Of a DNA stretch of 64,000 nucleotides, positions 34,301-52,484 are shown in pieces. This DNA comes from Microbaculum marinisediminis (lineage in GTDB: Bacteria; Pseudomonadota; Alphaproteobacteria; Rhizobiales; Tepidamorphaceae). Numbering within the stretch: position 1 is the stretch's first letter; every line of letters starts with the position of its first letter. The stretch lies in assembly GCF_025397915.1 (NCBI RefSeq), contig NZ_JALIDZ010000008.1, positions 62,001 through 126,000 of the forward strand. The letters run 5' to 3'. Made by a program: the position numbers and the translations under genes. The notes under the pieces were generated by a model. That model saw only the letters and a program-made list of their open reading frames with translations. It did no database searches and was not told where the DNA came from.

Positions 34301-35205
34301 GACTGTTCCCCCTGATCCGTCTCGCCGGAGAAATGGCGGTAGACGTCATCGAGGCTCGGCGGGGTGACGTCGATGTCGGTGATGGCGGCGCCGAGCGCGC
34401 CGATGGCGTTCAGCCGCTCCACCTTCCGGTCGGCCGAGCACAGGATCTCGACCGCGCAGCCGTTGACGCGGCTGCCGCCGAGTTGCTTGGCCAGAGCATC
34501 CGTGTCAGCGAACGTCGCCTCGACGCGAATGCGGATCGGCAGCCCTGCCTCCGCCCGCAGTTTCGCCAGGGGCGCATCGGCGACGAGCCGGCCGGACCGC
34601 ATGATCGCGACCCTGTCGGTCTTCGCCTCCAGCTCGGTCAGGCTGTGCGAGGACAGGAAGACGGCGGTGCCGCGCGCAGCGATCTCGGTGACGATCTCGT
34701 AGAACTCCTGCCGCGAGATCGGATCGAGGCCGCTGGTCGGCTCGTCGAGCAGGAGCAGGCGCGGTGCGCCGATCAGCGCCTGGGCGAGCCCGAGCCGCTG
34801 CCGCATGCCCTTGGAATAGGTGCCGACGCGCCGATCGGCCGCCACCCCGAGGCCGACCCGGTCGAGCAGCGCCTCCGCCGCCGCCCGGTCGGCCCGCTTC
34901 AGCTTCGCGTAGAAGCGGATGATCTCGCGCCCCGTCAGGGACTTCTGGAAGGCCACGTTCTCCGGCAGATAGGAGACCGCCCGCCGCGCCGCCGCCGAAC
35001 CGGGCGGATGGCCGGCGACCAGGAGCGTGCCCTCCGACGGACGCAGGAAGCCGAGGATCATCTTGAACAGCGTGGTCTTGCCGGCGCCGTTGTGGCCGAG
35101 CAGGGCGACACGCTCGCCGGCCGAGACCAAAAGGCTCACCCGGTCGACGGCGCGATGGCGGCCGAAGTCCCGGCACACGGAGCGGGATTCGAGAATCGCG
35201 GTCAT
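34297..35205 (-). CDS. nosF: NosF ATPase of the nos ABC transporter
   Basis: A 302-residue ATP-binding protein with Walker A GHNGAGKTT at about 37-45. The signature is YSKGMRQRLGLAQ, Walker B LLLLDEPTSGLD, with H-loop LSSHSLTELE. A C-terminal regulatory extension (about 215-300) is normal for this type. The ATG at 35205 overlaps the nosD stop; the longer open frame upstream is a nosD shadow. It powers the NosDFY copper-site maturation complex. Confidence 0.95.
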   Translation of the reverse strand: MTAILESRSVCRDFGRHRAVDRVSLLVSAGERVALLGHNGAGKTTLFKMILGFLRPSEGTLLVAGHPPGSAAARRAVSYLPENVAFQKSLTGREIIRFYAKLKRADRAAAEALLDRVGLGVAADRRVGTYSKGMRQRLGLAQALIGAPRLLLLDEPTSGLDPISRQEFYEIVTEIAARGTAVFLSSHSLTELEAKTDRVAIMRSGRLVADAPLAKLRAEAGLPIRIRVEATFADTDALAKQLGGSRVNGCAVEILCSADRKVERLNAIGALGAAITDIDVTPPSLDDVYRHFSGETDQGEQS

Positions 35206-36470
35206 GACCGGCTTCCTTCGCCGGGCACCGGAATGTCCACCGGTGTCATGAGCGGCGCGCTGTCGACGACTCCGCCGGGCAGCAGCGCCGGGAACTGGGA
35301 TTGCGACCAGCGCACCAGCTGGACCGCCGGGCTGCCGAGCAGGAGCTTCGCCGCCGGCTGCGTCCACAGGACCTGGTCGATGATGTCGTTGGGGCGATAG
35401 GCGCTGTCGGCTATGCCGTCGCCGTTGACGTCGAAGGCGGCGTGATCGCTCCAGTAGTTGCCGCGGCCCGCCTCGCTCCATTCGAGATAGCGCGTGCCGA
35501 CATACTTCACCTGGGTCTGGTTGCCGATGAAGGCGTTGCCGACGATGGTGTTGCGGTCCGAGCCGGCGGTGAAATGGATGCCGATCTCGCACGCCTCGAA
35601 CCGGTTGTCGGCGAGCCGGTTCTTGTTGGCGTTGTACATGAACAGGCACTTCTCGGCCGCCGCGCGCACGTAATTGCCTTCGATCGTCGCGCCATTGGCA
35701 TAGTTGAGCATGATGCCGTAGTCGCGGTCGTCGATCGAAATGTTGTCGCGCACCGTCAGCCCGTCCGAGAACATCAGGGCGTAGCCGAGATGGTTGCCGA
35801 CCGAAACGTTGCCGACGATCTCGCCGTCGCCGGCATACATGTAGTGGACCGCGAAGCGCAGGTCCTGGAACCGGTTGTCGCGAATGACGTTGCGCGCGCT
35901 CGTGTTGACGAAGATCCCGTCGCGGCCCTGGCGGATCGTGTTGCCCTCGATGGCCGCGCCGGGCGCGTTCCACACGTAGATGCCATTGCCGCGTTCGTTC
36001 ATGCGGAAATCCGTGCGGCCGACCACGAGATTGCCCGCCACCCGGGCATCCCTGGCGCCGTGAATGTCGATCCCATAGAGGTTCCCGATCGATTCACTGT
36101 CCAGGACCACACCGCGATCGGCGGTCTTCGTCAGCTTGATGCCGGAATCGATCGACTGGTGCGACGACCCCGAGCCGGACACCCGCACCCGGGAGACGAC
36201 CACGTCCGGCGCCGTCACGGTAATCACCGTGCCGGTTCCCCCGCCCTGGATCTCGACGCCCTCCGCCCCTTCCACGGTGAGCGGCTTGTCGATCACGATG
36301 GCGCCGGAGTAGACGCCGGGGCGCAGCCGGAGGACATCCCCCGGCTGCGCATTGTCGATGGCCGCCTGCAACGCGCCCGGCGCCGGCGCCACGACGGTTT
36401 CGGCGGCCTGCGCCGAAACAGCCGCGAGCGTGGCAGCGAGCAACGAAGACAGTGTCAGGCGGCGCAGCAT
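35202..36470 (-). CDS. nosD: NosD periplasmic copper-maturation protein
   Basis: A 422-residue exported protein with a cleavable signal (LLAATLAAVSAQAAE). About a dozen repeats follow of the right-handed beta-helix (CASH) type, such as IEGNTIRQGRDGIF, NVIRDNRFQDLRFAVHYM and IVGNVSVGNHLGYALMF. NosD is the periplasmic arm of NosDFY and takes copper from NosL to NosZ. It begins 3 bases after the nosZ stop. Confidence 0.95.
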   Translation of the reverse strand: MLRRLTLSSLLAATLAAVSAQAAETVVAPAPGALQAAIDNAQPGDVLRLRPGVYSGAIVIDKPLTVEGAEGVEIQGGGTGTVITVTAPDVVVSRVRVSGSGSSHQSIDSGIKLTKTADRGVVLDSESIGNLYGIDIHGARDARVAGNLVVGRTDFRMNERGNGIYVWNAPGAAIEGNTIRQGRDGIFVNTSARNVIRDNRFQDLRFAVHYMYAGDGEIVGNVSVGNHLGYALMFSDGLTVRDNISIDDRDYGIMLNYANGATIEGNYVRAAAEKCLFMYNANKNRLADNRFEACEIGIHFTAGSDRNTIVGNAFIGNQTQVKYVGTRYLEWSEAGRGNYWSDHAAFDVNGDGIADSAYRPNDIIDQVLWTQPAAKLLLGSPAVQLVRWSQSQFPALLPGGVVDSAPLMTPVDIPVPGEGSRS

Positions 36471-36473
36471 GGG

Positions 36474-38408
36474 TCAGGCGCTCCGCGGCTCGACGAACAT
36501 GCGGCCGCGCATCTCCATGTGGAGAGCATGGCAGAACCACTGGCAGTAGAACCAGTGGACGCCCGGCCGTTCGGCGATGAAGGTGACCGAGGCCGTCGCC
36601 TGCGGCGCGACTTCCATCGCCACGCCGTAGTTGGACATGGTGAAGCCGTGCGTGAGGTCGTCGACGTCATCGATGTTCGTGACGTAGATCGTCACCTCGT
36701 CGCCCTGCTTGACGGTGAACGACTCCATCGAGAAGGTCGGCGCGGCCGAGTACATGTAGACGCGCACCTTGTTGCCGTCCCGGATCGGCTCGTCGGCCCC
36801 GTCTTCCAGGTCGACACCGTCGGCTTCCGCCTGCTTGCGCGCATCTTCCCATGTCGGGTCGTCGCGGTCCCAGACGATCTTCGGGTTCACCTTCGACGCA
36901 TGCACGATGATGCTGTCGTGCGGCTCGGCGAAGGTCGGACCGTCATGCACGATCTTCATGTCATCGGACGAGATGTCGATGAGCTGCTCGTTCTCCGGCT
37001 TCAGCGGGCCGACGTTGAGGAACCGGTCCTTGGAGAACTTGTTCATCGATATCAGCCACTTGCCGTCCGCTTCCGCGGTCTCGCCCATGCTGGTCGAGTT
37101 GTGGCCCGGCTGATAGTGGACATCGACCTTGGAGATGATCGGGTCGACATCTTCGCCGGCATAGGCGCGAACGGCCTTCTCGATGTCCCACTTCACGACC
37201 TGGCTGTCGAGGAAGAGCGTCGTGAAGGCGTTGCCCTTGCCATCGAAGGCGGTGTGTAGCGGTCCAAGGCCCAGTTCCGGCTCGGCGACGATGCACGAAC
37301 GCGGATCCGCGTCGCTGTCGAACAGGGCATCGACCTTCTCGACATCGATCACCGAGCAGGTCGGCGACAGCTTGCCGTTGATGACGACGTGCTTCTTGTC
37401 CGGCGCCGTGTTGCAGCCGTGCGGGCTGTTCGGAATCGGCACGTAGCGGGTGTACTTCTTGTTCTTGCCCTTGCGCCCGTCGATGACCTTGACGCCCTGC
37501 AGCTCCTGATAGTCGCCCTCGGCGATGCCCTTCTCGATCTCCTTGATATTGAAGATCACGACGTGGTCCATCTCGTTCGCGGTCATCTCGGCGAGGTTCA
37601 TCCCCATCTCCGAGTTGTAGCTGGTCGAGAAGGCGTACTTGCCCTGGTAATCGCAGTCGGTGTTGTCGAGGTTGCCGCTGACGATCACCTGCCAGGCGAT
37701 TTCCATGGTGTCGCCGTCGATCGCCGTGAAGATGTTCACGTACTGCGACGGATCGTCGAGGATCTTGCCGTCGTTGACCAGCGGCGCCTCATGTTCGCCG
37801 TTGGCGAAGATGTAGCCGGTCCGCGGATATTTCTGCGGCCGCATGCCGTGGATGTCGTTGGCGTTGGGGATCTCGATGATCTTGTCGCAGCGCATGACGT
37901 CGCAGCGCACGCGCGCGACACGGGTATTGGCCTTGTCCTGCATGAACAGGTAACGGCCGTCATAGGTGCCGTCGGTGAACGACATGTGCGGGTGGTGCAG
38001 GTCTCCGTTCTGATAGGTCTGGAGTCCGTGCGCGGCGAGGAACGCCTTGGTTTCCGGCAGAAGACCTTCGGTGAGGATCTTCAGCGACTCGTTGGTCTGC
38101 CCCCAGCCGGTGGCCGAGCAACGGTTGAACACCGGAACCCGCATCAGCTCGCGCATCGAGGGAACGCCTACGATGCGCAATTCGCCCGTCTGCCCGCTCG
38201 ACCAGAAGCCGTAGTACTCGTCGAGCTCGCCCGGCGACAGCGCGTACTTGGGCGTGCTGCCCTGGGCCACGGCGGGTGTGACCGATGTCGTCGACAAGAG
38301 CGCGCCGGTTCCACCAACAGCCGCGCCGCCGGCGACGAAGGCCGTAGTCGCGGTACCAGACAAGAGGGTCCGTCTGGAGATCCCCTCTTTGTTGTGTTCA
38401 TCCGTCAT
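36474..38408 (-). CDS. nosZ: Nitrous-oxide reductase, Tat-exported (clade I)
   Basis: A 644-residue periplasmic copper enzyme that reduces N2O to N2. The Tat signal ([19 protein letters not shown]) marks clade I. CuZ histidines begin with DLHHPHMSF (near 136-144). The C-terminal CuA cupredoxin domain has C622-x-W-x-C626-H-x2-H630-M631. No key ligand appears lost, so the enzyme should be active. It lies 36 bases after nosR in the normal order. Confidence 0.98.
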
Positions 38409-38444
38409 TTCCCGTCTCCTTCTTCTGGAACGTGGGTGCAGTCT

Positions 38445-40649
38445 TCATCCGGCGGCGGCAGGCGCCTCTTTGGCGGGTTTTGCCGTCGGCTTGGCGATAC
38501 CGGTGCGCTCCTCGAAGCGCCTGCGCTTGGCGAGCTTCGCGATGACGACCGGGCATTTCTTCTCGTGCTGGTACAGCACCTGGCAATGCAGGCACTGGAG
38601 GCATTCGTTGGGGTTGATGTGGCCTTCCGGATGGATGGCCTGGACCATGCACTCGTTGGCGCAACGGGCGCAGGGATTGCCGCATTCGCGGTAGCGCTTC
38701 AGCCAGTCGAACATGCGCAGCCGCGCGGGAATGGCGAGCGCCGCCCCCAGCGGGCACAGATAGCGGCAATAGAACCGCTCGACGAACAGGCCAACCGCCA
38801 GGATCCCGACCGCGAACAGCACGAACGGCCAGGCGCGCATGAACTTAAGGATGATCGCCGTCTTGAAGGGCTCGACCTCCGCGTAGTGCTCGGCAAGCTC
38901 AAGCGAGTACAGCGACATCCCGAACAGCCCGAGGAAGATCAGGTACTTCACCGGCCACAGGCGCTCGTGCAGGCCCCATGGCACCGCGTATTGCGGGATC
39001 CGGATCAGCTTGGCGATCCGGTTAGTCAGCTCCTGCAGGGCCCCGAACGGACAGAGCCAGCCGCAATAGGCGCCGCGCCCCCAGAACAGAAGGGCGGCCG
39101 CCACCGAGAACCACAGGATGAAGACGAGCGGGTCCATCAGGAACGCGCTCCAGGAGAAGTCGTGAACGAGGGCGTTGAAGAACGCCAGCACGTTGACCAC
39201 GGAGAGCTGCGCGTTCGCGTACCAGCCCAGGAAGAAGAGCGTCACCGTCAGGTAGCCGATGCGGAACCAGAACGTCAGGCGCTCGTAGCGCGTGAGCTGC
39301 ATCTGGAAGAAGAACCCGCCCGTCAGCACCAGCAGCATCGCCGCCAGGACAATGACCTCGACACGCTTGGTCACCCAGATCCGGCGCCACAATTCGTTCG
39401 ATTCCGAAGCCTCCGCCTGGGCGAGCGGCGCCGTCTCCGGCTGCGGCTGCGCGGCGATGGGCTTCAGATAGGTCGCCGGCGTCTGGTATCCGAGATCGAA
39501 GGTCAGGAACAGTTTCTCGATCGCCCCGACCGGTCGCTGGGCCAGGAGCTGCAGACGGAACGGCTTTGCCGGATCGAACCCGATCCCGGCCGGGATCTTG
39601 AAGATGTCGAGCTCGGAGAACGTCGGCGCGTCGTCCGTCGCCAGCGTGCCCAGCCGCCGGTGCTGGCGGTCGAAGAAGCGCGCCGAGACGTCGCCCTGGA
39701 TGAGCTGGATGCGATCGAAGATGCCGCCGCGGACATAGCCCGAGCCCTTGAACGAATACCGGCCGCGGCCAAGGACGAGGATCGCCTGCTCGCCCTCCTC
39801 GAGCCAGGCTTCGAGGTTGCGATACTCCGCCTCGCCGAGGAGGCTGCGGCCAATGGTCGGCACGCTCACCAGCGCGACATAGAGGTCGATGAAGCTGTCC
39901 TCGGGCGCGCCCTTCTCGGGATGCTTGCGGGCGCGGGCATCGCCGTGCCGGGCGAAGGCCTCGTTGATCTGGCCGATGTCGAGCGACATACGCCGGACCG
40001 AGCCGTCGCCGACAAGCGTCTGCCAGTCCAGCACCTCGACGGGCTTGTCCATGTCGATGGCCTTGGTCGGCCCTGCGGCCGCGGTGCCGCCGCTCAGGCC
40101 GCCGAGGCCCAGCGCGCGGGCCACCTTCAGCCCCGCCCGGACGATCGAGTCGTCGATCACCATGATCGTGACGGTCGCGCCCGAGACGATATCCAGGTCG
40201 TGCGCCGACCCGCCGGCCGCCGCTTCCTTCTTGAGATCGAGGCCGGCGTAGCCCTCGGTGACCGCCTTGATGCGGGAATCGGGAATGCCGATCAGCACGA
40301 TCGGCTCGGAATGCTTGACGAGCCGGACGCCGGTCAGCACCGCGTCCGTGTCGATGCCGACCAAGGTGTGGATCGGCTTGCCCGAATAACCCGTCGTCTC
40401 GACGAAGTCCGACGTGAGGAAGACGTAGCCGATCGTCTCGCCGTCGCGGAGCGCCGGAACGACCGGGATCGTCTCATCGACCGGGCCGTAATCATCGGCA
40501 CCGGGCACAAGCTCGCCGACCGGCACTTCGGTCGTGAAGGTGGTGACGATCGGCGCACTGTGCCCCGCGGTGGACGCCAACAGCGTCAGCGCGACGAACA
40601 TCGCCGCGATTGCCCAGAGTCCCGAAAATCGCGGCGATAATTGGAGCAT
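38445..40649 (-). CDS. nosR: NosR, flavo-iron-sulfur membrane regulator/electron donor for N2O reduction
   Basis: A 734-residue protein. A signal anchor leads to a periplasmic FMN-binding domain with the covalent-flavin motif IVSGATVT (about 164-171). Five or six membrane helices follow, then cytoplasmic ferredoxin-like clusters: AYCGWLCPFGALQE, CRYLCPLGAALAIP, CGNPCARCANECM and CLQCLHCQVLYQHEKKCP. NosR is required for nosZ expression and in vivo electron supply. It is the first gene of the operon; the regulatory box lies 120 bases upstream. Confidence 0.96.
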   Translation of the reverse strand: MLQLSPRFSGLWAIAAMFVALTLLASTAGHSAPIVTTFTTEVPVGELVPGADDYGPVDETIPVVPALRDGETIGYVFLTSDFVETTGYSGKPIHTLVGIDTDAVLTGVRLVKHSEPIVLIGIPDSRIKAVTEGYAGLDLKKEAAAGGSAHDLDIVSGATVTIMVIDDSIVRAGLKVARALGLGGLSGGTAAAGPTKAIDMDKPVEVLDWQTLVGDGSVRRMSLDIGQINEAFARHGDARARKHPEKGAPEDSFIDLYVALVSVPTIGRSLLGEAEYRNLEAWLEEGEQAILVLGRGRYSFKGSGYVRGGIFDRIQLIQGDVSARFFDRQHRRLGTLATDDAPTFSELDIFKIPAGIGFDPAKPFRLQLLAQRPVGAIEKLFLTFDLGYQTPATYLKPIAAQPQPETAPLAQAEASESNELWRRIWVTKRVEVIVLAAMLLVLTGGFFFQMQLTRYERLTFWFRIGYLTVTLFFLGWYANAQLSVVNVLAFFNALVHDFSWSAFLMDPLVFILWFSVAAALLFWGRGAYCGWLCPFGALQELTNRIAKLIRIPQYAVPWGLHERLWPVKYLIFLGLFGMSLYSLELAEHYAEVEPFKTAIILKFMRAWPFVLFAVGILAVGLFVERFYCRYLCPLGAALAIPARLRMFDWLKRYRECGNPCARCANECMVQAIHPEGHINPNECLQCLHCQVLYQHEKKCPVVIAKLAKRRRFEERTGIAKPTAKPAKEAPAAAG

Positions 40650-42554: not shown

Positions 42555-42579
42555 AACGCGCGCGATCGCCGTTGGTTCC
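42555..42579 (-). promoter_or_regulatory. EcfG-type promoter of dps
   Basis: On the minus strand GGAAC, 16 bases, CGTT: the consensus of the alphaproteobacterial general-stress sigma factor. It ends 82 bases before the dps ATG. Confidence 0.85.
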
Positions 42580-42989: not shown

Positions 42990-43790
42990 TCAGCCGTTGG
43001 CCACCGCTTGCGGCTCCGAACCCGCGCGCGTGTCGAAGAACAGCGCCTGACTGATCACCGCCTTCACGGTGTCGGTCTGGAACGGCTTCGTGATCAGGAA
43101 GGCAGGCTCCGGCCTTTCGCCGGTGAGGAGACGTTCGGGATAGGCGGTGATGAAGATCACCGGCACGTCGATCTCCGTCAGCATCTCGTTCACCGCGTCG
43201 ATGCCCGAGCTGCCGTCGGCGAGCTGGATATCGGCGAGCACCAGCCCGGGACGTCGGTCGCGCGCTGCGGTGATCGCCTCGCGATGCGTCCGCGCAAGGC
43301 CGGACACCTCGTGACCGAGCCCCGTGACCAGCGCCTCGAGATCCATGGCGATCATCGCCTCGTCCTCGATGATGAGCACGTTGGTGGACACCTGGGCGGC
43401 GATTTCGCGCCCGGCTTCGTCGATGAGCGAGCGGACGCCGTCTTCGTCGCTGTTCAGGATGGTGGCCGCCTGCGGCAGCGAGAAGTCCTCCACGGTCGTC
43501 AATAGGAACGCCTGGCGTGCCCGCGGCATGATCGCATCGAGGTTGCGCTCGAACGGCGTCGCCGGCCCGTCGCCCTGGTGGTTGATGTCGATCGTGTCCC
43601 AGATCCCGACCAGCACCTTGTAGAGCGCGACGCGCGGTTCTAGCGCGGTATCGAACAGGTCCTGATCGGCGATGATCGCTTCCAGGCAGGCCGCGACGTA
43701 GGCGTCGCCGCCCGCCTGCGTGCCCGTCAACGCACGGGCAAACCGCCGCAAATACGGAAGATGCGGCGCAATCGTCATGGCGATCGACAT
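42990..43790 (-). CDS. phyR: PhyR anti-anti-sigma response regulator
   Basis: A 266-residue master switch of the general stress response. The N-terminal sigma-like domain (about 1-130) mimics EcfG to capture NepR. The C-terminal receiver (about 136-255) has the acid pair E142-D143, phosphoacceptor D187 in [15 protein letters not shown] and ITKPF. Phosphorylation exposes the sigma-like part, which frees EcfG. The ATG at 43790 has GGGAG upstream; a second ATG lies four codons on. It is divergent from nepR-ecfG and has its own EcfG promoter, giving positive feedback. Confidence 0.97.
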
Positions 43791-43828: not shown

Positions 43829-43853
43829 AACGCGGAATTCGGCCTCTGGTTCC
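43829..43853 (-). promoter_or_regulatory. EcfG-type promoter of phyR
   Basis: GGAAC, 16 bases, CGTT on the minus strand, 39 bases before the phyR ATG. Perfect consensus, consistent with autoregulation of the cascade. Confidence 0.9.
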
Positions 43854-43882: not shown

Positions 43883-43907
43883 GGAACCATTTTGTGGCGA
43901 TCGCGTT
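43883..43907 (+). promoter_or_regulatory. EcfG-type promoter of nepR-ecfG
   Basis: GGAAC, 16 bases, CGTT, 58 bases before the nepR ATG. It is back to back with the phyR promoter, 29 bases apart, so one short region drives both arms. Confidence 0.9.
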
Positions 43908-43964: not shown

Positions 43965-44243
43965 ATGTCCAGTAACGACGAAAGCAAGCGCGAAGTGACC
44001 GAGCCAGAACCGCAGACCGAAGCGAATGCCGCTCTGGACGAGCGTCTGCAGGCCCATATCGGCGTGCAGCTCAAGTCCATGTACGACTCCTACCTGAACG
44101 AACCGATCCCCGACCGGCTCGTCGACTTGCTCGAACAGCTCGACCGGGTTTCCCGGGACCCCGGCCCGGACGAGCACCCGGACAGCCGCCATGACAGTCG
44201 CCGGCGCCGGCCCGAAGAGTCACGCGGAGGGTCTGACGAATGA
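43965..44243 (+). CDS. nepR: NepR anti-sigma factor
   Basis: A 92-residue protein that holds EcfG inactive until phosphorylated PhyR takes it away. The two-helix NepR core HIGVQLKSMYDSYLNEPIPDRLVDLLEQL, read over residues 31-59, is intact, flanked by acidic or basic disordered tails. The stop overlaps the ecfG start by ATGA, which keeps the two proteins in ratio. The position between divergent EcfG promoters and ecfG is the standard arrangement. Confidence 0.95.
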   Translation: MSSNDESKREVTEPEPQTEANAALDERLQAHIGVQLKSMYDSYLNEPIPDRLVDLLEQLDRVSRDPGPDEHPDSRHDSRRRRPEESRGGSDE

Positions 44244-44791
44244 ACCCGCGCAAGGAACTCCTCGAGCACATCCCCAATCTCCGCGCCTTCGCGATGTCGC
44301 TGTGCGGCAGCCCCGACCGCGCCGACGATCTGGTGCAGGAAGCCCTGGTGAAGGCCTGGAGCAAACTCGACAGCTTCGAGGAAGGCACCAACATGCGCGC
44401 CTGGCTGTTCACCATTCTGCGCAACGGCTTCTATTCCGAGCTGCGCAAACGGCGTCGTGAAGTCGAGGATGCCGATGGCGCCATGGCCGCCCAGCTCGCC
44501 ACCCATCCCGCCCAGTCCGGCCATATGGACTTCAAGGATTTCCGGGTGGCGCTCGAACAGCTTCCCGCCGATCAGCGCGAGGCGCTGATCCTTATCGGTG
44601 CATCGGGCATGTCCTACGACGAGGCTGCGGAAATCTGCGAATGCGCGGTCGGCACGGTCAAGAGCAGGGTGAACCGGGCGCGTCAGAAACTGGCTGAAAT
44701 TCTTGCCGTGGAATCGGTGGCGGAATTCGGCCCCGACGAAACATCGCAGCCGATCGTCACCCCATCATCCACGACCCGGTCCGTGGCTTGA
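44240..44791 (+). CDS. ecfG: EcfG general-stress ECF sigma factor
   Basis: A 183-residue group ECF15 sigma factor. Region 2 (about 12-80) contains GSPDRADDLVQEALVKAW and NMRAWLFTILRN. Region 4 (about 105-160) has LPADQREALILIGASGMSYDEAA and GTVKSRVNRARQKL. It recognises GGAAC/CGTT promoters, copies of which stand ahead of several genes nearby. A C-terminal tail of about 20 residues is unremarkable. Co-translated with nepR. Confidence 0.96.
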   Translation: MNPRKELLEHIPNLRAFAMSLCGSPDRADDLVQEALVKAWSKLDSFEEGTNMRAWLFTILRNGFYSELRKRRREVEDADGAMAAQLATHPAQSGHMDFKDFRVALEQLPADQREALILIGASGMSYDEAAEICECAVGTVKSRVNRARQKLAEILAVESVAEFGPDETSQPIVTPSSTTRSVA

Positions 44792-44834: not shown

Positions 44835-44859
44835 GGAACCTTTCGCGGCGTCGCGCGTT
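44835..44859 (+). promoter_or_regulatory. EcfG-type promoter of the CHASE sensor kinase
   Basis: GGAAC, 16 bases, CGTT, 27 bases before the kinase ATG and 43 bases after the ecfG stop. It lets the kinase-regulator-DUF2254 unit respond to EcfG separately from read-through. Confidence 0.85.
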
Positions 44860-44885: not shown

Positions 44886-46874
44886 ATGACAGCCGCGCAA
44901 AGTCGCCTTGCAGCCTTCGCAATCGTGGCGATAGCGATCGCCGCGTCGGCGTTCGCCTATATGTCGTGGCGCCAGAGCCAGGTATCCGCGTTCGCGGCCT
45001 CGGCCAAGGCGGCCCTTGCGAATGTCGATCTGGTCCTCGATCGCGCGCTGCTGACGGTGCGCGCCGCCCAGGGCCTCTACGCCAGCCGGCCGGAGGCCAG
45101 CGAAGGCGACCTCACCCGTTTCGTGGAGGGCATGGGGCCGGTCCTTGGCCTGCGCTCGCTGGTCTATCATCCGCGCGTGACGGCCGAGGGTCGCGCCGCG
45201 TTCGAGGTCGGTCTGCAGCGCAGCGGCAAGAGCACGTCCGGAATCTGGACACTCGAGGACGGCCGGCGCGTCCCCGCCGGTGACAATCCCGTCTACTATC
45301 CCGTGGCCGCATCCTACTTCTTCCCCGACGTGGCACCGGTCTACGGGTTCGACATCCGCTCCCATCCCCAACGCCGGTTCGCCGTCGATATGGCCGCCCA
45401 GTACGGTCTTGGCACGTCGACCGAGGTCGTGACCTTCGTCACCAGCGGCGAAGAACCTGTGCGTGGGGTCATTTTCTACAAGCCCGTGGTCGTCGGCGGA
45501 GAGGTCGTCGGCATCGTCAGCGGCAGCATCGAGCTCGACCAGCTCATCACCATCGCCAGGTCCACATCCCCCGACATTCGCGACGTCGAGGTCGAGATCG
45601 GCCCGCTGGAACTCGCCGGCGGCGCGCCGGTGGATTCTCCGAACGTGACCGACGATTCCGAACCATTTCTCGTCGTCGACCAGCAGAACCATTCGGGCCG
45701 GCTGTGGCAGATCAGGGTCAGCGGTGGCCCCCGCATAACCGACTATGCCCGCGGCTACGCGCTGATGACACTGGTGCTGTTGGCCGGCTTGGGCGCCGCC
45801 GCCGCCGTCATCGGATATTCGACGGCGGCGCGGCGCGGCCGCGACCTGCTGTCCGCCGAAACGCGGTTGCGCCGGACCCTCGATGGCCTGGTGCCGCTGG
45901 TGTTCATGACGGACCCGCGCGGCCGGGTCATCACCGCGAACCGCACCGCGCTGGATCACGCCGCGAACGGCGAGGCCGATCTCGTCGACAAGACCATCGA
46001 CGAGCTGCCGCTGTGGGACAGCGATCCGGCCAACAAGGACGCCTTGCATCTGGCGATCGCCCGCGCCGCCGAAGGAGAGGAAAGGCGCCTCGACGTTCTG
46101 TCCACGGAAACGGAGTCGGGACAGTCCGTGTACGACGTCTCGGTCAGGCCCATCGCCGCGGTCAACGGCGAGATCACCCACCTCGTCGTGTCCGCCCTCG
46201 ATGTCACCGAACGTGTCGAGGCCGCCGAAACCGAACGCCTGCTGATGCGCGAACTCGACCATCGCATGAAGAACACCTTGCAGGTCGTCCAGGGTGTCGT
46301 CCGGCGCACCGCACGCAGCCACGAAACGGTCGACGCCTTCGAGACGTCTCTGCTCGGGCGGATCACGACCATGGCGCGCGCCCACGACCTGCTCGCCCGC
46401 GAGCGCTGGCTCGGCGCCGATCTCAGAACCGTCGTCCTGCAGGAGATCCAGCCCTTCGAGGAAGGTCGCTCGATAACGGTCACAGGCGCCCCGATCCGGA
46501 TCAATCCGAAGGGCGCTCTCGCTTTCGCGCTGGCCATGCACGAACTCGGCACCAACGCGATCAAGTATGGCGCCCTTTCTGTGGCGGAGGGACGGCTCGA
46601 TATCGACTGGTCGCTCGAAGGCGACGATGACGATCGCAAGCTGATTTTTCACTGGCGCGAGAGCGACGGACCGAAGGTCCGGGTCCCGGAGCGGCGGGGC
46701 TTCGGGTCGCTGCTGCTCGAGCGTAGCATCACCTACGATCTCGACGGCAGCACCTATCTCGAATTCGCGCCGGAAGGCGTGAATTGCCGTATAGAGATTC
46801 CGTGGGACCGGATCAGGCCGATGACCGCGAGCGTCCATTTCCGCGAACGCCTCGCCAAGGGGGCAATGGCATGA
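44886..46874 (+). CDS. CHASE-PAS-HWE/HisKA_2-type membrane sensor histidine kinase
   Basis: A 662-residue kinase. TM1 is at about 8-28. A periplasmic CHASE-like domain follows (about 40-285, with LRSLVYHPRVTAEGR and VYGFDIRSHPQRR). TM2 is at about 292-312 and a PAS domain at about 328-445. The transmitter has phosphoacceptor H459 in ELDHRMKNTLQVV, an N-box HELGTNAIKYGALS and a short RRGFGSLLLE lid. This HWE/HisKA_2 group typically feeds PhyR. The ribosome site at 44886 is weak. It overlaps the next regulator gene by ATGA. Confidence 0.92.
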   Translation: MTAAQSRLAAFAIVAIAIAASAFAYMSWRQSQVSAFAASAKAALANVDLVLDRALLTVRAAQGLYASRPEASEGDLTRFVEGMGPVLGLRSLVYHPRVTAEGRAAFEVGLQRSGKSTSGIWTLEDGRRVPAGDNPVYYPVAASYFFPDVAPVYGFDIRSHPQRRFAVDMAAQYGLGTSTEVVTFVTSGEEPVRGVIFYKPVVVGGEVVGIVSGSIELDQLITIARSTSPDIRDVEVEIGPLELAGGAPVDSPNVTDDSEPFLVVDQQNHSGRLWQIRVSGGPRITDYARGYALMTLVLLAGLGAAAAVIGYSTAARRGRDLLSAETRLRRTLDGLVPLVFMTDPRGRVITANRTALDHAANGEADLVDKTIDELPLWDSDPANKDALHLAIARAAEGEERRLDVLSTETESGQSVYDVSVRPIAAVNGEITHLVVSALDVTERVEAAETERLLMRELDHRMKNTLQVVQGVVRRTARSHETVDAFETSLLGRITTMARAHDLLARERWLGADLRTVVLQEIQPFEEGRSITVTGAPIRINPKGALAFALAMHELGTNAIKYGALSVAEGRLDIDWSLEGDDDDRKLIFHWRESDGPKVRVPERRGFGSLLLERSITYDLDGSTYLEFAPEGVNCRIEIPWDRIRPMTASVHFRERLAKGAMA

Positions 46875-47239
46875 ACGAGCCGGCGCGCATCCTCATTCTC
46901 GAGGACGAGTTCATGATCGCGATGGAGTTCGAGACGGTACTGCTCGACGCCGGGTATGGCGTCGTCGGCCCGGCGGCGGATGTCGGCACGGCGATGGGCC
47001 TGATCGATACCGAGTGTCCGGACGCAGGGGTTCTCGACGTCAACCTCGGGCGCGGCGAAACCAGCGCGGCGGTCGCGCAACGACTGGGCAATCTTTCCGT
47101 CCCCTTCGTCCTGTGTACCGGCTACCAGACCTCCGAACTCGTCCAGCGCTATGGCGATACCGTACCGATCCTGCAAAAGCCGGTGGACGCGGTGAAGCTC
47201 GTCGAGGTGCTGCGATGCCTGATGTCTCCGTCTCCCTGA
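46871..47239 (+). CDS. Single-domain response regulator
   Basis: A 122-residue stand-alone receiver: acid pair E11-D12, phosphoacceptor D56 in GVLDVNLG, T84-type switch residue in VLCTGY and lysine in ILQKPVD. Without an output domain it is likely a phosphate relay or sink for the kinase it overlaps, as with single-domain regulators that tune PhyR phosphorylation in other alphaproteobacteria. Its last 25 bases overlap the DUF2254 start. Confidence 0.93.
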   Translation: MNEPARILILEDEFMIAMEFETVLLDAGYGVVGPAADVGTAMGLIDTECPDAGVLDVNLGRGETSAAVAQRLGNLSVPFVLCTGYQTSELVQRYGDTVPILQKPVDAVKLVEVLRCLMSPSP

Positions 47240-48528
47240 CCGGGCTTCTGCGCCCCTGGGTCCGTCTGGCCCGCAGCTTCGTGGCCGTGCCTGCCTTCTT
47301 TGCGCTGCTGGCGGTTCTGCTGGCCGTTGGCATGCTGCAGCTCCATCTCGGCAGTGACCATGTGTCGGGCACGATCGACCGCGTGCTGCCGCCGCTCAAT
47401 CCGGACACCGCCAGGACGCTGCTGTCGGTCATTGCCGGCTCGATGATGACGGTGTTGAGCCTCGTCTACTCGCTCACCCTGATCGTCTTCACCCTGGCCG
47501 CCGGCAATATCGGCCCGCGCCTGATCGAACGCTTCACCAACGACCGCACCACCCAGGTGACCGCCGGCCTTCTCGTCGGCACCTTCGGCTACACCGTGAT
47601 TGTCCTGAGCCGCATCGACGCCGAGACCGTGCCGCGCGGCGCCACCTTCGGCGCGCTCCTGTTGACCGGCGTGACGCTGGCGTCCCTCATCGTCTTCATC
47701 CGCTCGGTCGCGGAACGGGTCTCGATCGACAACGAGATCGGTCGGGTGTCCGCCCAACTCATCGAAGAGCTGGAGAAAATAGGGGCCCGCGAAACCGCTG
47801 ACGACCCGGCGCTCGAAGAGCTGCGAGGGGACGGCGGGGCCATTGCCGTCTCCAGCACCGCGGACGGCTATGTGACCGCGCTCGACGCCTACGCCATCAC
47901 CGCTGCGGCGCGCGAGACCGACGCCTTCGTCGAAATGAAGGTCCGGCAAGGCGACTTCGTGATTGCGGGACAGGAAATCGCCGTCGTCACCGGGGCGGAG
48001 GATCTTGAGGGCCTCGACGATGTCATCCGCTCGGCGATGTTCCTCGAGCGCCGGCGAACATCGGAGTCCGACGCGGAGTTCTCCGTGCACCTCCTTGTCG
48101 AGATCGCGATGCGCGCCCTCTCGCCCGGGATCAACGACAGCTATACCGCGATCGCCTGCATAGACCAGCTTTCGGCGGCCCTGGCCCTGCCGGTGCGCGG
48201 CTACGCACCGCCGCCGCTGACCAAGGACAGCGAAGGCACGCCGAGGCTCTGGTTCGACGGGGTCTCGGTCGAGACCCTGGTCGGCACCGCTCTGCATCCG
48301 CTGCGCCGCGCGTCGGCCGGCAACGTGACCGTGACGCTGCGCCTGATCCGCGCCATCGGCCGCCTGGCGGGCGTCGCACATGCCTCGCACCATGGCCTCC
48401 TGGAGAAGCATATCGCGCTGATCCTCGAGGACGCCCGTCGCGAGATCGGCAACGAGGCCGATTTGAACGAGGTCGAGACGGCCGCGGCCGCGGCGCTGGA
48501 AGATCTCAACGCCGCGCCGGCGGATTGA
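47215..48528 (+). CDS. DUF2254 family membrane protein
   Basis: A 437-residue protein. Four N-terminal helices lie within about residues 20-160 (FVAVPAFFALLAVLLAVGML, SVIAGSMMTVLSLVYSLTLIVFTLA with a family-typical SxxYS segment, and FGYTVIVL). A large cytoplasmic domain follows (about 170-437) with HLLVEIAMRALSPGINDSYTA, a strong DUF2254 signature. Function unknown. The start inside the receiver gene (25-base overlap, GAGG site) gives translational coupling. It converges with the next kinase gene and overlaps it by 23 bases. Confidence 0.9.
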   Translation: MPDVSVSLTGLLRPWVRLARSFVAVPAFFALLAVLLAVGMLQLHLGSDHVSGTIDRVLPPLNPDTARTLLSVIAGSMMTVLSLVYSLTLIVFTLAAGNIGPRLIERFTNDRTTQVTAGLLVGTFGYTVIVLSRIDAETVPRGATFGALLLTGVTLASLIVFIRSVAERVSIDNEIGRVSAQLIEELEKIGARETADDPALEELRGDGGAIAVSSTADGYVTALDAYAITAAARETDAFVEMKVRQGDFVIAGQEIAVVTGAEDLEGLDDVIRSAMFLERRRTSESDAEFSVHLLVEIAMRALSPGINDSYTAIACIDQLSAALALPVRGYAPPPLTKDSEGTPRLWFDGVSVETLVGTALHPLRRASAGNVTVTLRLIRAIGRLAGVAHASHHGLLEKHIALILEDARREIGNEADLNEVETAAAAALEDLNAAPAD

Positions 48529-50365
48529 GCTGCTCTAGCGGAATGACGAACGTCGCCCGTACCCCCTGCTGGGGGAACTGCAGGTCGACATGGGCGTCCA
48601 GCGAACGCGCCACGTTCTGCTCGACGACGATCCGCCCGAAGCCGCGGCGCGTCGGCGGCTCCACCGGCGGCCCGCCGGTTTCCTGCCAATCGAAACGCAA
48701 GGCGACGTCGTCATCCGCGACCTCAAGCCGCCACGTGACCGTTACGATGCCCGCGTCGTTCGACAGCGCCCCGTACTTCGCGGCGTTGGTGGCGAGTTCG
48801 TGCAGCGCCAGCGCGAGCACCTGCGTCGCCTCGGGCGTCAGTGTCACCTCCGGCCCCTCGACGACGACGCGCGAGCGGTCCTGCGGCATGTAGTGGCCGA
48901 TCTGGCCGCGAATGACCTGTTCCAGGCGGACACCCGACCAGTTCTCGGCGACCAGCAGGTCCTGCGCGCCGGCAAGCGCCCGCAGCCGTTCCCCGAATCC
49001 GTCGACGAACTCCCCGACCGTGCCGGCCTGCTGCGCCGTTTGCCGCGCGATCGCCTGCACCACGGCGAGCAGGTTCTTGGAGCGGTGGGTCAGCTCGCGC
49101 ATGACGAGGCGCATCTGCTCTTCGCTGCGCTTTGCATCGGTGATGTCTATCGCCGCGCAGGTGACGCCGGTGACGACCCCGTCGACGGCAACGGTCGGCT
49201 CGACGAAAAGATCGAACCAGCGAACCGCGTCACCGCCGTCGACCCGGATCTCGCCCGAGCGCGGCTCTTTCGCAGCCATCGCTTCGGTCTTCAGCGCCAC
49301 GATCGGCGTCAGGTCGGGCTCCTTGTGGAGGTCGGCGTCAGTCTTGCCGACGACCGGCCGGAGCACGGTATCGTTTCTGTTCGTCCAGATGTAGCGAAGA
49401 TCGGTGTCCTGCGAGAAGACGACAATGTCGCCCGATCTGAGCGCAACGTTGAAGCGCTGCACCGATTCCGACAGACGCCGGCTGAGATCGGCGCGCATTT
49501 CCTCCAGTCGCTTCGACCCGGTGATATCGATGGCGGTGCAGGCGATCCCCGTGACGCCCCCCTCGCCGTCGGTCAGCGGCGTGACATCGATGCGGAACCA
49601 GGAGGAGGCATCGCCGTTCGGGATCTCCACCTCGAAGGTATCGGGCCTGCTCGCTTCGATCGCGCGCCGCTTGTGGGCCACGATCGTCGCGCATGCCAGC
49701 TCGGGGAACAGCGCATCGTCCGCCTTGCCGACGACATCGCTCTCGCGCATGCCGAGCCAGGGATTGTGGATCCAGGTGTAGCGCAGGTCCCGGTCCTGGG
49801 AGGACACCGTGATCTGCGCGCCGCGCGTGGCCGCCTCGAACAGCTGCCGCACCTCGGCCAGTTCCCGCGTCCGCTCGGCAACCTGCCGCTCCAGGTCGCG
49901 CCGGGCCGCCTCCAGGTCGCCATAGGCGCGGTCGCGCGCCGCAGCCTCCTCCACGAGCCGCTGGTTGATCACCTCGATCTGGCGCGGCGAGGCAATGGCC
50001 ACGAGCCGCGGCAACATCCGCCACACGACGATCGCGGTCAGGATCGACACGAAGGCGGTCGCCGCCTTGGCCATCCCGTCGAGACCGTAATACGGATACC
50101 AGAGCGTCAAGAGACCGCCGAGATGGGTGATGCCGCACAGGACGATGAAGGCCGAGAACAGGATCGCGATCTGCCTGGCCTCCCCCGTGATGTCGCCCCT
50201 GCGCCTGGCGAAGACCACGATGGCCAGCGGAATGGCGAAATAGGCGGCCGCGATGCCGGCATCGGATACTGCATGCAGCGCCACGAGGTCCGGCCGCCAC
50301 GTCAGGCAATAACCGTGCGGCACGAAGTTTGCCGCGCCGAAGACATACTCAACGATCTGGTCCAT
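48506..50365 (-). CDS. HWE-type sensor kinase with ethylene-receptor-like membrane domain and two PAS domains
   Basis: A 619-residue kinase. The N-terminal three-helix membrane domain (about 15-125) reads close to the plant ETR1 ethylene-binding domain: HAVSDAGIAAAYFAIPL and FIVLCGITHL keep D35, Y42, P46, I74, C77 and H81 at ETR1 spacing, including the copper-ligand Cys and His. The equivalent of ETR1 Glu38 is Ala48. A coiled coil (about 130-175) leads to PAS domains at about 172-285 and 301-410, then the transmitter with H427 in RELTHRSKNLLAVV and N-box HELATNAAKYGALS. Lacking an output domain, it must signal to a separate receiver. Confidence 0.9.
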   Translation of the reverse strand: MDQIVEYVFGAANFVPHGYCLTWRPDLVALHAVSDAGIAAAYFAIPLAIVVFARRRGDITGEARQIAILFSAFIVLCGITHLGGLLTLWYPYYGLDGMAKAATAFVSILTAIVVWRMLPRLVAIASPRQIEVINQRLVEEAAARDRAYGDLEAARRDLERQVAERTRELAEVRQLFEAATRGAQITVSSQDRDLRYTWIHNPWLGMRESDVVGKADDALFPELACATIVAHKRRAIEASRPDTFEVEIPNGDASSWFRIDVTPLTDGEGGVTGIACTAIDITGSKRLEEMRADLSRRLSESVQRFNVALRSGDIVVFSQDTDLRYIWTNRNDTVLRPVVGKTDADLHKEPDLTPIVALKTEAMAAKEPRSGEIRVDGGDAVRWFDLFVEPTVAVDGVVTGVTCAAIDITDAKRSEEQMRLVMRELTHRSKNLLAVVQAIARQTAQQAGTVGEFVDGFGERLRALAGAQDLLVAENWSGVRLEQVIRGQIGHYMPQDRSRVVVEGPEVTLTPEATQVLALALHELATNAAKYGALSNDAGIVTVTWRLEVADDDVALRFDWQETGGPPVEPPTRRGFGRIVVEQNVARSLDAHVDLQFPQQGVRATFVIPLEQLNPPARR

Positions 50366-50445: not shown

Positions 50446-50471
50446 GGAACGCGAATCCGGGAGAATTCGTT
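50446..50471 (+). promoter_or_regulatory. Possible EcfG-type promoter reading rightward
   Basis: GGAAC, 17 bases, CGTT in the 114-base gap between two minus-strand genes. It would fire antisense to the receiver-like gene and only after about 525 bases reach the plus-strand regulator. About one chance match per window is expected for this motif, so it may be accidental. Confidence 0.3.
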
Positions 50472-50479
50472 GCAGTCCA

Positions 50480-50899
50480 CTATTGGACTTGCGAAGGAAA
50501 GCCATGCGGACGCGAAGCGTCACCGCCTCCTAAGGCATAGACGTGCAACGCGGTTTTCAGCACGTCCGGGTCCAGCGGATGGACAAGCCGGGTGAGAAGG
50601 TCTCTGGGGGAGCGGTCGACGGGGTCGGCCGTGTCGCGATCCGCAGTCGCGACGAGGATCGTCGGCGTACCGAGATCGTGCAGGCCGGCGAGCAGGTCGT
50701 CGATCGCCTCGGTGGCTCCGGGAACCAGGACGGCGACATCAACGGGTCCGGTCAGCAAGGCGGCCCTGGCGGAGTCGACGGCCCGGGTCAGCATGACCAT
50801 CCATTCGGCCCCGCCGGCGCGCAAGACGCCCTCCAGTTCCAGAGCCAGCGCGTCGCTGTCCATCAGAAAAAGCGCCGCGCGGGATCGCGAAGCCGCCAC
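50480..50899 (-). CDS. Degenerate receiver-like protein lacking the phosphoacceptor Asp
   Basis: A 139-residue protein with the receiver alternation of strands and helices: ALFLMDSDALALELEGVL (about 9-26), PVDVAVLVPG, PTILVATADRD and LVHPLDPDVLKTAL. Compared with the true receiver encoded at 46871-47239, the phosphoacceptor position is V59 and the conserved lysine is H107; D14 and T85 remain. It therefore cannot be phosphorylated normally. I chose the GTG at 50899 (AGGAGG seven bases upstream) over the ATG at 50920. It is read toward the ethylene-receptor-like kinase gene 114 bases on. Family fold assignment is mine, from pattern only. Confidence 0.65.
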   Translation of the reverse strand: MAASRSRAALFLMDSDALALELEGVLRAGGAEWMVMLTRAVDSARAALLTGPVDVAVLVPGATEAIDDLLAGLHDLGTPTILVATADRDTADPVDRSPRDLLTRLVHPLDPDVLKTALHVYALGGGDASRPHGFPSQVQ

Positions 50900-50995
50900 G
50901 TCCCTACCTCCTGCCACCATTTGCCAGCCATCATCCGTGCGGCGAGCACCGCCGGAAGGCTGTTTTATTGGCTATGATGGAACCGAGGCGGGACT

Positions 50996-52377: not shown

Positions 52378-52402
52378 AACGGCGAACCGGCCGGATGGTT
52401 CC
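52378..52402 (-). promoter_or_regulatory. EcfG-type promoter of the csbD-like gene
   Basis: GGAAC, 16 bases, CGTT on the minus strand, 139 bases before the ATG, so the leader would be about 130 bases. It is back to back with the plus-strand copy 57 bases away. Confidence 0.75.
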
Positions 52403-52458: not shown

Positions 52459-52484
52459 GGAACCAGTTAGCCGGCTTGCGCGTT
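52459..52484 (+). promoter_or_regulatory. EcfG-type promoter of the AI-2E-family gene
   Basis: GGAAC, 17 bases, CGTT, ending 27 bases before the ATG at 52512. It overlaps upstream in-frame codons, which argues against any earlier start for that gene. Confidence 0.8.

Follow-up and report, generated by a model that had tools for sequence, protein, structure and literature searches.

An ethylene-receptor-type sensor domain on an HWE kinase at the general stress response locus of Microbaculum marinisediminis

Introduction

Which cues reach the general stress response (GSR) of Alphaproteobacteria? PhyR, NepR and EcfG form the core of this response, and to our knowledge its inputs are mostly unknown. 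HWE/HisKA2 kinases phosphorylate and activate PhyR in Alphaproteobacteria, and PhyR then removes NepR from EcfG (PMC12148442). Few microbes have been shown to sense ethylene through a defined receptor (PMC11819568). In a stretch of 64,000 nucleotides from Microbaculum marinisediminis (contig NZ_JALIDZ010000008.1, positions 62,001 to 126,000; hereafter the window), a sensor histidine kinase with an ethylene-receptor-type domain sits in a GSR locus together with PhyR, NepR, EcfG and a CHASE-HWE kinase. This setting suggests that the GSR may receive a gas or copper signal by way of the kinase. An intact ethylene-type site in a kinase of a phyR locus offers a direct, testable candidate cue for the response.

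Results

The kinase joins an ETR1_N domain to an HWE kinase

The kinase gene (48506..50365, minus strand) runs from an ATG at 50365 to its stop-inclusive end at 48506 and encodes 619 amino acids, which the reading frame and Pfam together resolve into the order ETR1_N - PAS - PAS - HWE. The earlier note, made from the sequence alone, had pointed to ETR1-type residues and spacing in this protein and proposed a profile search against ethylene-receptor domains. That search found the ETR1_N domain (Pfam PF25487) at residues 27-123 (49997..50287, minus strand) with an E value of 2.5e-33. At 114.6 bits, where the curated cut-off is 27, the likeness is far from chance. Two PAS_4 stretches follow, and then the HWE_HK domain at residues 424-506 (48848..49096, minus strand; Pfam PF07536, E 1.4e-25), which scores 90.3 bits against a cut-off of 22.8. 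HRSKN, starting at residue 427, HELATN at 522 and WQE at 560 correspond to the H-box, HExxxN and WxE motifs of HWE kinases, and we take HRSKN as the putative phosphoacceptor site. The kinase is the sole ETR1_N protein in the M. marinisediminis genome, and none of 14 control genomes had a match. A search of a collection of genome contigs (genome_contigs) with the whole kinase protein returned two loci, both matching outside the sensor domain only.

Alignment confirmed the residues that had been noticed by eye. D35, Y42, I45, P46, I74, C77 and H81 of the kinase align with D25, Y32, I35, P36, I62, C65 and H69 of ETR1, so that the seven ethylene-binding positions read DYIPICH and all seven are present. 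Asp25, Cys65 and His69 make up the copper site of ETR1 (PMC12643061). For a member of the ethylene-receptor family in which none of the seven residues is missing, a Cu(I)/ethylene-type site, as the earlier note had proposed, would be the natural expectation.

Ala48 of the kinase aligns with Glu38 of ETR1, an exchange that had been read as pointing to another ligand or to altered signalling. Across the 88 ETR1_N loci surveyed (described below), all seven residues are kept in 48, the window's own counted, and at the Glu38 position these carry Ala (29), Val (5), Gly (4), Phe (4) and Thr (2), with Met, Ser, Trp and Ile once each and Glu in 0 of 48. The domain of Azospirillum brasilense Sp7 (L177) has the same seven letters as the kinase and likewise Ala at this position. 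We take L177 to be AzoEtr1 because one such gene is reported for Sp7 (PMC11819568), and AzoEtr1 of this strain binds ethylene (PMC11819568). By these alignments Ala is the norm among loci with all seven residues. We therefore rejected the view that the exchange marks another ligand: no intact locus has Glu, and the ethylene-binding AzoEtr1 has Ala.

Structure predictions were made for residues 1-130. A single-sequence model (pLDDT 62.6, pTM 0.40) gave two long helices and short ones, whereas in a three-sequence model of modest confidence (pLDDT 68.2, pTM 0.58) residues 25-56, 62-89 and 93-122 each form a long helix. A PDB sequence search with these residues returned no match at E 10, and a PDB fold search with the three-sequence model returned nothing at E 0.001 (best E 0.61).

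The kinase lies in a general stress response locus

The anti-anti-sigma factor PhyR, with its sigma-like domains and receiver, is encoded at 42990..43790 on the minus strand (PF22029, PF22233, PF00072) and is the only PF22233 match in the genome. On the plus strand follow the anti-sigma factor NepR (43965..44243; PF18557, 1.2e-15) and an ECF sigma factor (44240..44791; Sigma70_r2, Sigma70_r4_2 and a PhyR_sigma2 match) that, from its position and family, is probably EcfG. A CHASE - PAS - HWE kinase (44886..46874; PF03924, PF08448, PF07536), the second HWE kinase of the locus, a single-domain response regulator (46871..47239; PF00072, 3.3e-8) and a DUF2254 protein (47215..48528; PF10011, 5.6e-91) are encoded on the same strand, the last convergent with the kinase. 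Two of the three HWE_HK matches in the genome thus lie in the GSR locus, a count outside which the HisKA_2 kinases fall. The CHASE-HWE kinase is closer to phyR than the ETR1_N-HWE kinase, with 4.3 kb and several genes intervening, and it may be the main kinase of PhyR.

In the same-genus relative L103, synteny keeps the DUF2254 protein next to the kinase, within a conserved order of Dps, PhyR, NepR, EcfG, CHASE-HWE kinase, regulator, DUF2254, kinase, Crp, CsbD and PerM; for Dps, CsbD and PerM the names are our assumption from the sequences. A further ORF of 146 amino acids (ORF146; 50480-50920), on the minus strand like the kinase and upstream of it, is without a Pfam match. It has a weak relative (29 bits) at the equivalent place in L115 and none seen in L103, and it possibly represents a receiver domain that has degenerated. 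The HWE type of the kinase and its GSR address, which the earlier note had missed, are the strongest clue to its output.

EcfG-type promoter motifs mark the locus. With GGAAC-N16/17-CGTT, which we take to be the EcfG promoter consensus, the window holds 10 motifs against 0.82 expected. One lies 39 bases upstream of phyR (43829..43853, minus strand), one upstream of nepR-ecfG (43883..43907, plus strand), one upstream of the CHASE-HWE kinase (44835..44859, plus strand) and one in the gap before the ETR1_N-HWE kinase, directed away from it (50446..50471, plus strand). The motif is likewise dense in the 28 phyR-linked regions of the survey, with 125 in 497,557 bases (2.51 per 10 kb), against 28 in 1,056,778 bases (0.26 per 10 kb) in the 60 other regions. 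The 400 bases that precede the ETR1_N domain hold a strict motif on the kinase's own strand in 0 of the 28 phyR-linked loci, the window included, so the kinase, as far as its upstream sequence indicates, does not look like a member of the EcfG regulon. Nine of the 28 have a motif in this stretch that points away from the kinase. Further motifs at 42555-42579 (minus), 52378-52402 (minus) and 52459-52484 (plus) stand upstream of genes resembling Dps, CsbD and a PerM-type permease; the locus may thus be surrounded by a block of genes of the stress regulon.

ETR1_N-HWE kinases are repeatedly linked to phyR

Among sampled genomes, which overlap between the samples, ETR1_N occurs in 64 of 397 from the order, 28 of 385 from the class and 23 of 299 from the phylum. 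For comparison, 88 ETR1_N regions were drawn from the order and class samples: 57 of the 67 places in the order (the 10 weakest left out) and 31 of the 35 in the class (two already included, two of one genome left out). PhyR was present in 27 of the 36 loci whose ETR1_N ORF includes an HWE kinase, the window counted, and in 2 of the 52 where it does not; regions extend at most about 10 kb per side and are shorter at contig ends (for example L104 and L111), so that some phyR neighbours may be missed. Fisher's test gave a p value of 8e-13, which serves as a guide only, the loci being related within families. The two non-HWE loci with phyR are L090, a HisKA kinase with a receiver, and L126, a 134-amino-acid ETR1_N ORF. 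The latter, without a kinase in frame, is counted as non-HWE in this comparison and is included among the 28 phyR-linked rows used for residues below. Together with L126, the 27 linked loci fall under 10 family codes (f1, f15, f17, f27, f31, f41, f45, f87, f131 and f200), and kinase and phyR are 84 bases apart in L124 and 87 bases apart in L137. L105 has only a weaker paralogue of PhyR beside the kinase (41.8 bits to PF22233), in a region where EcfG was not seen.

Pfam searches with ten survey proteins gave ETR1_N above the cut-off with PAS and HWE in eight. L141 has PAS and HWE likewise, with ETR1_N just below the cut-off (26.8 against 27), and L090 combines ETR1_N with HisKA.

Proximity to phyR as a general rule for HWE kinases was rejected: in 12 genomes, 7 of 37 HWE rows without ETR1_N had a PhyR row at a distance of 10 kb or less, one gene apparently being split into two of these rows. 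As the 12 genomes were chosen for having an ETR1_N-HWE kinase, which is near phyR in 10 of them, this 37-row baseline is their only informative count.

Most phyR-linked relatives have lost the metal ligands

The Cys65/His69 pair is gone in 19 of the 28 phyR-linked domains (L117, L118, L122, L124-L128, L130, L136-L138, L141-L144, L173, L175 and L176), and the pair and all seven residues are kept in the same nine (L102, L103, L105, L106, L107, L109, L110, L113 and the window; family codes f1, f15, f17 and f41). All seven residues are present in 6 of the 9 ETR1_N-HWE kinases away from phyR and in 33 of the 51 other ETR1_N proteins. With the pair lost in 19 of 28, ETR1_N, judged by these ligands, cannot be an ETR1-type Cu/ethylene site in most of the surveyed phyR-linked GSR loci. 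Since only nine of the 28 keep Cys and His, the ETR1_N-HWE architecture at phyR would often work without a metal. No other result counts as strongly against a simple role in ethylene sensing as this loss.

The same loss gives its weight to a different reading, namely that the kinase is a general membrane or envelope sensor in which the ETR1_N fold is a structural module and the metal site a relic or optional: the 19 relatives lack Cys and His yet have ETR1_N beside phyR, and where Pfam was consulted they share the ETR1_N - PAS - HWE architecture. We hold this to be unlikely, and what argues against it is the kinase's own branch, where the metal site is mostly kept. In a tree of 109 rows and 113 columns, which includes the places from the phylum survey as short loci only, less 3 of them that were repeats, and leaves out rows below 50 bits, phyR-linked rows cluster (9 changes against a shuffled mean of 25.0); the tree does not show a single origin for them. 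The window's branch has 11 rows (support 81, from few columns), and nine of these carry the seven residues: L102, L103, L105, L107, L109, L110, L113, L115 and the window. The exceptions are L117, without Cys and His, and L174, which has Asn for Asp25 and is a long branch of unsure placement. A separate 30-row alignment was picked for intact residues, and its invariant columns were not counted as evidence. ETR1_N relatives with Cys and His kept are also encoded on two IMG/VR contigs of 278,859 and 41,280 bases (L178 and L179).

The copper context is weak evidence for the cue

The denitrification setting described by the earlier note was borne out: genes that serve to reduce nitrous oxide, namely nosR, nosZ (of the TAT-dependent type) and nosD, lie at 35202-40649 on the minus strand. 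As a hint of the cue, this copper-rich neighbourhood proved weak. NosR was matched in the window's own region only and in 0 of 11 other regions examined, among them that of the same-genus contig, which breaks off a short way from there. On this ground we set aside the proximity of the nos genes as evidence. The genome has no ACC deaminase match and thus gives no added sign of an ethylene-related plant life.

The nos genes bear on the possibility that the kinase is a Cu(I) or redox sensor, whose Cys/His site would track the supply of copper or the presence of copper-bound small molecules, not ethylene, and relay it to the stress response. The intact metal site, the copper enzymes of denitrification encoded nearby and the finding that Cu(I) alone stiffens ETR1 (PMC12643061) are consistent with it. 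Against it stand, besides the count for NosR, the seven ethylene-binding residues, which are more than metal ligands alone need, and the tested relative AzoEtr1, which binds ethylene (PMC11819568). We consider a copper or redox cue in place of ethylene rather improbable.

Discussion

An ETR1_N domain with intact residues, an HWE kinase and a position in a GSR locus come together in one protein of M. marinisediminis, and the linkage of this architecture to phyR recurs. The reading we prefer, which we put at slightly short of an even chance, is that the kinase is a Cu(I)-dependent sensor of ethylene or another pi-ligand that acts on PhyR. We infer its metal, ligand, direction of effect and phosphotransfer partner as follows. 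In the ETR1_N domain, with its three predicted helices, Cys77 and His81 would coordinate Cu(I) close to Asp35, at a site on helices 1 and 2, and this site would bind ethylene or a similar small pi-ligand. Binding may then alter the activity of the HWE kinase through the two PAS domains. The kinase would control phosphorylation of PhyR, either directly or via the single-domain regulator of the locus, and phosphorylated PhyR would take NepR off EcfG and so switch on the general stress regulon.

A further reading is that an ethylene or copper sensor of this kind signals not to PhyR but, for example, to the single-domain regulator encoded in the locus or to an unlinked one, and that its GSR neighbourhood is due to chance or shared history. 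This seems distinctly unlikely to us: 9 of the 36 ETR1_N-HWE kinases have no phyR in their region and AzoEtr1 adjoins a single-domain regulator of its own (PMC11819568), but the phyR linkage spans 10 family codes and phyR is an immediate neighbour in several loci, L124 and L137 among them.

Applied beyond this genome, the preferred reading of a Cu(I)-dependent sensor acting on PhyR would mean that in several alphaproteobacterial families an ethylene-receptor-type Cu(I) sensor was wired to the GSR by an HWE kinase at phyR, that stress resistance is thereby governed by ethylene or a similar gas, and that other lineages lost the metal site and took another cue. We offer this wider picture tentatively, as possible rather than probable. 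The relatives without the metal site are its natural controls.

Bacterial ethylene receptors are already known (PMC11819568; PMC7700396). Among open-licence papers we found none that ties them to HWE kinases, PhyR, EcfG or the GSR, which is no proof of absence, and the terms general stress, EcfG and PhyR are absent from the text of the AzoEtr1 paper (PMC11819568).

AzoEtr1 of A. brasilense Sp7 resembles the kinase in being alphaproteobacterial and in having an N-terminal seven-residue domain with Ala at Glu38, PAS and a histidine kinase. It differs in its 525 amino acids, its one PAS domain and its own adjoining single-domain regulator (PMC11819568), whereas two PAS stretches, an HWE kinase and a GSR locus are found on the side of the M. 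marinisediminis protein. Over the domain, the kinase is 45% identical to the AzoEtr1-type domain of strain MTCC4038.

Plant ETR1 and SynEtr1 (slr1212) of Synechocystis have an ethylene-binding domain of the same kind, and ETR1 carries the seven residues with Glu at position 38. Their kinase is of the HisKA type instead of HWE, and their outputs differ from the setting of the kinase described here. Between sensor and kinase they have a GAF domain (PMC7700396, PMC12643061), in contrast to the PAS domains of the M. marinisediminis protein. In Brucella ovis, an HWE kinase likewise adjoins phyR in a GSR locus; it is described as cytoplasmic with a PAS domain, in passages that mention no ETR1_N (PMC10592609). 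Set beside these systems, the GSR address of the kinase is the new, testable point.
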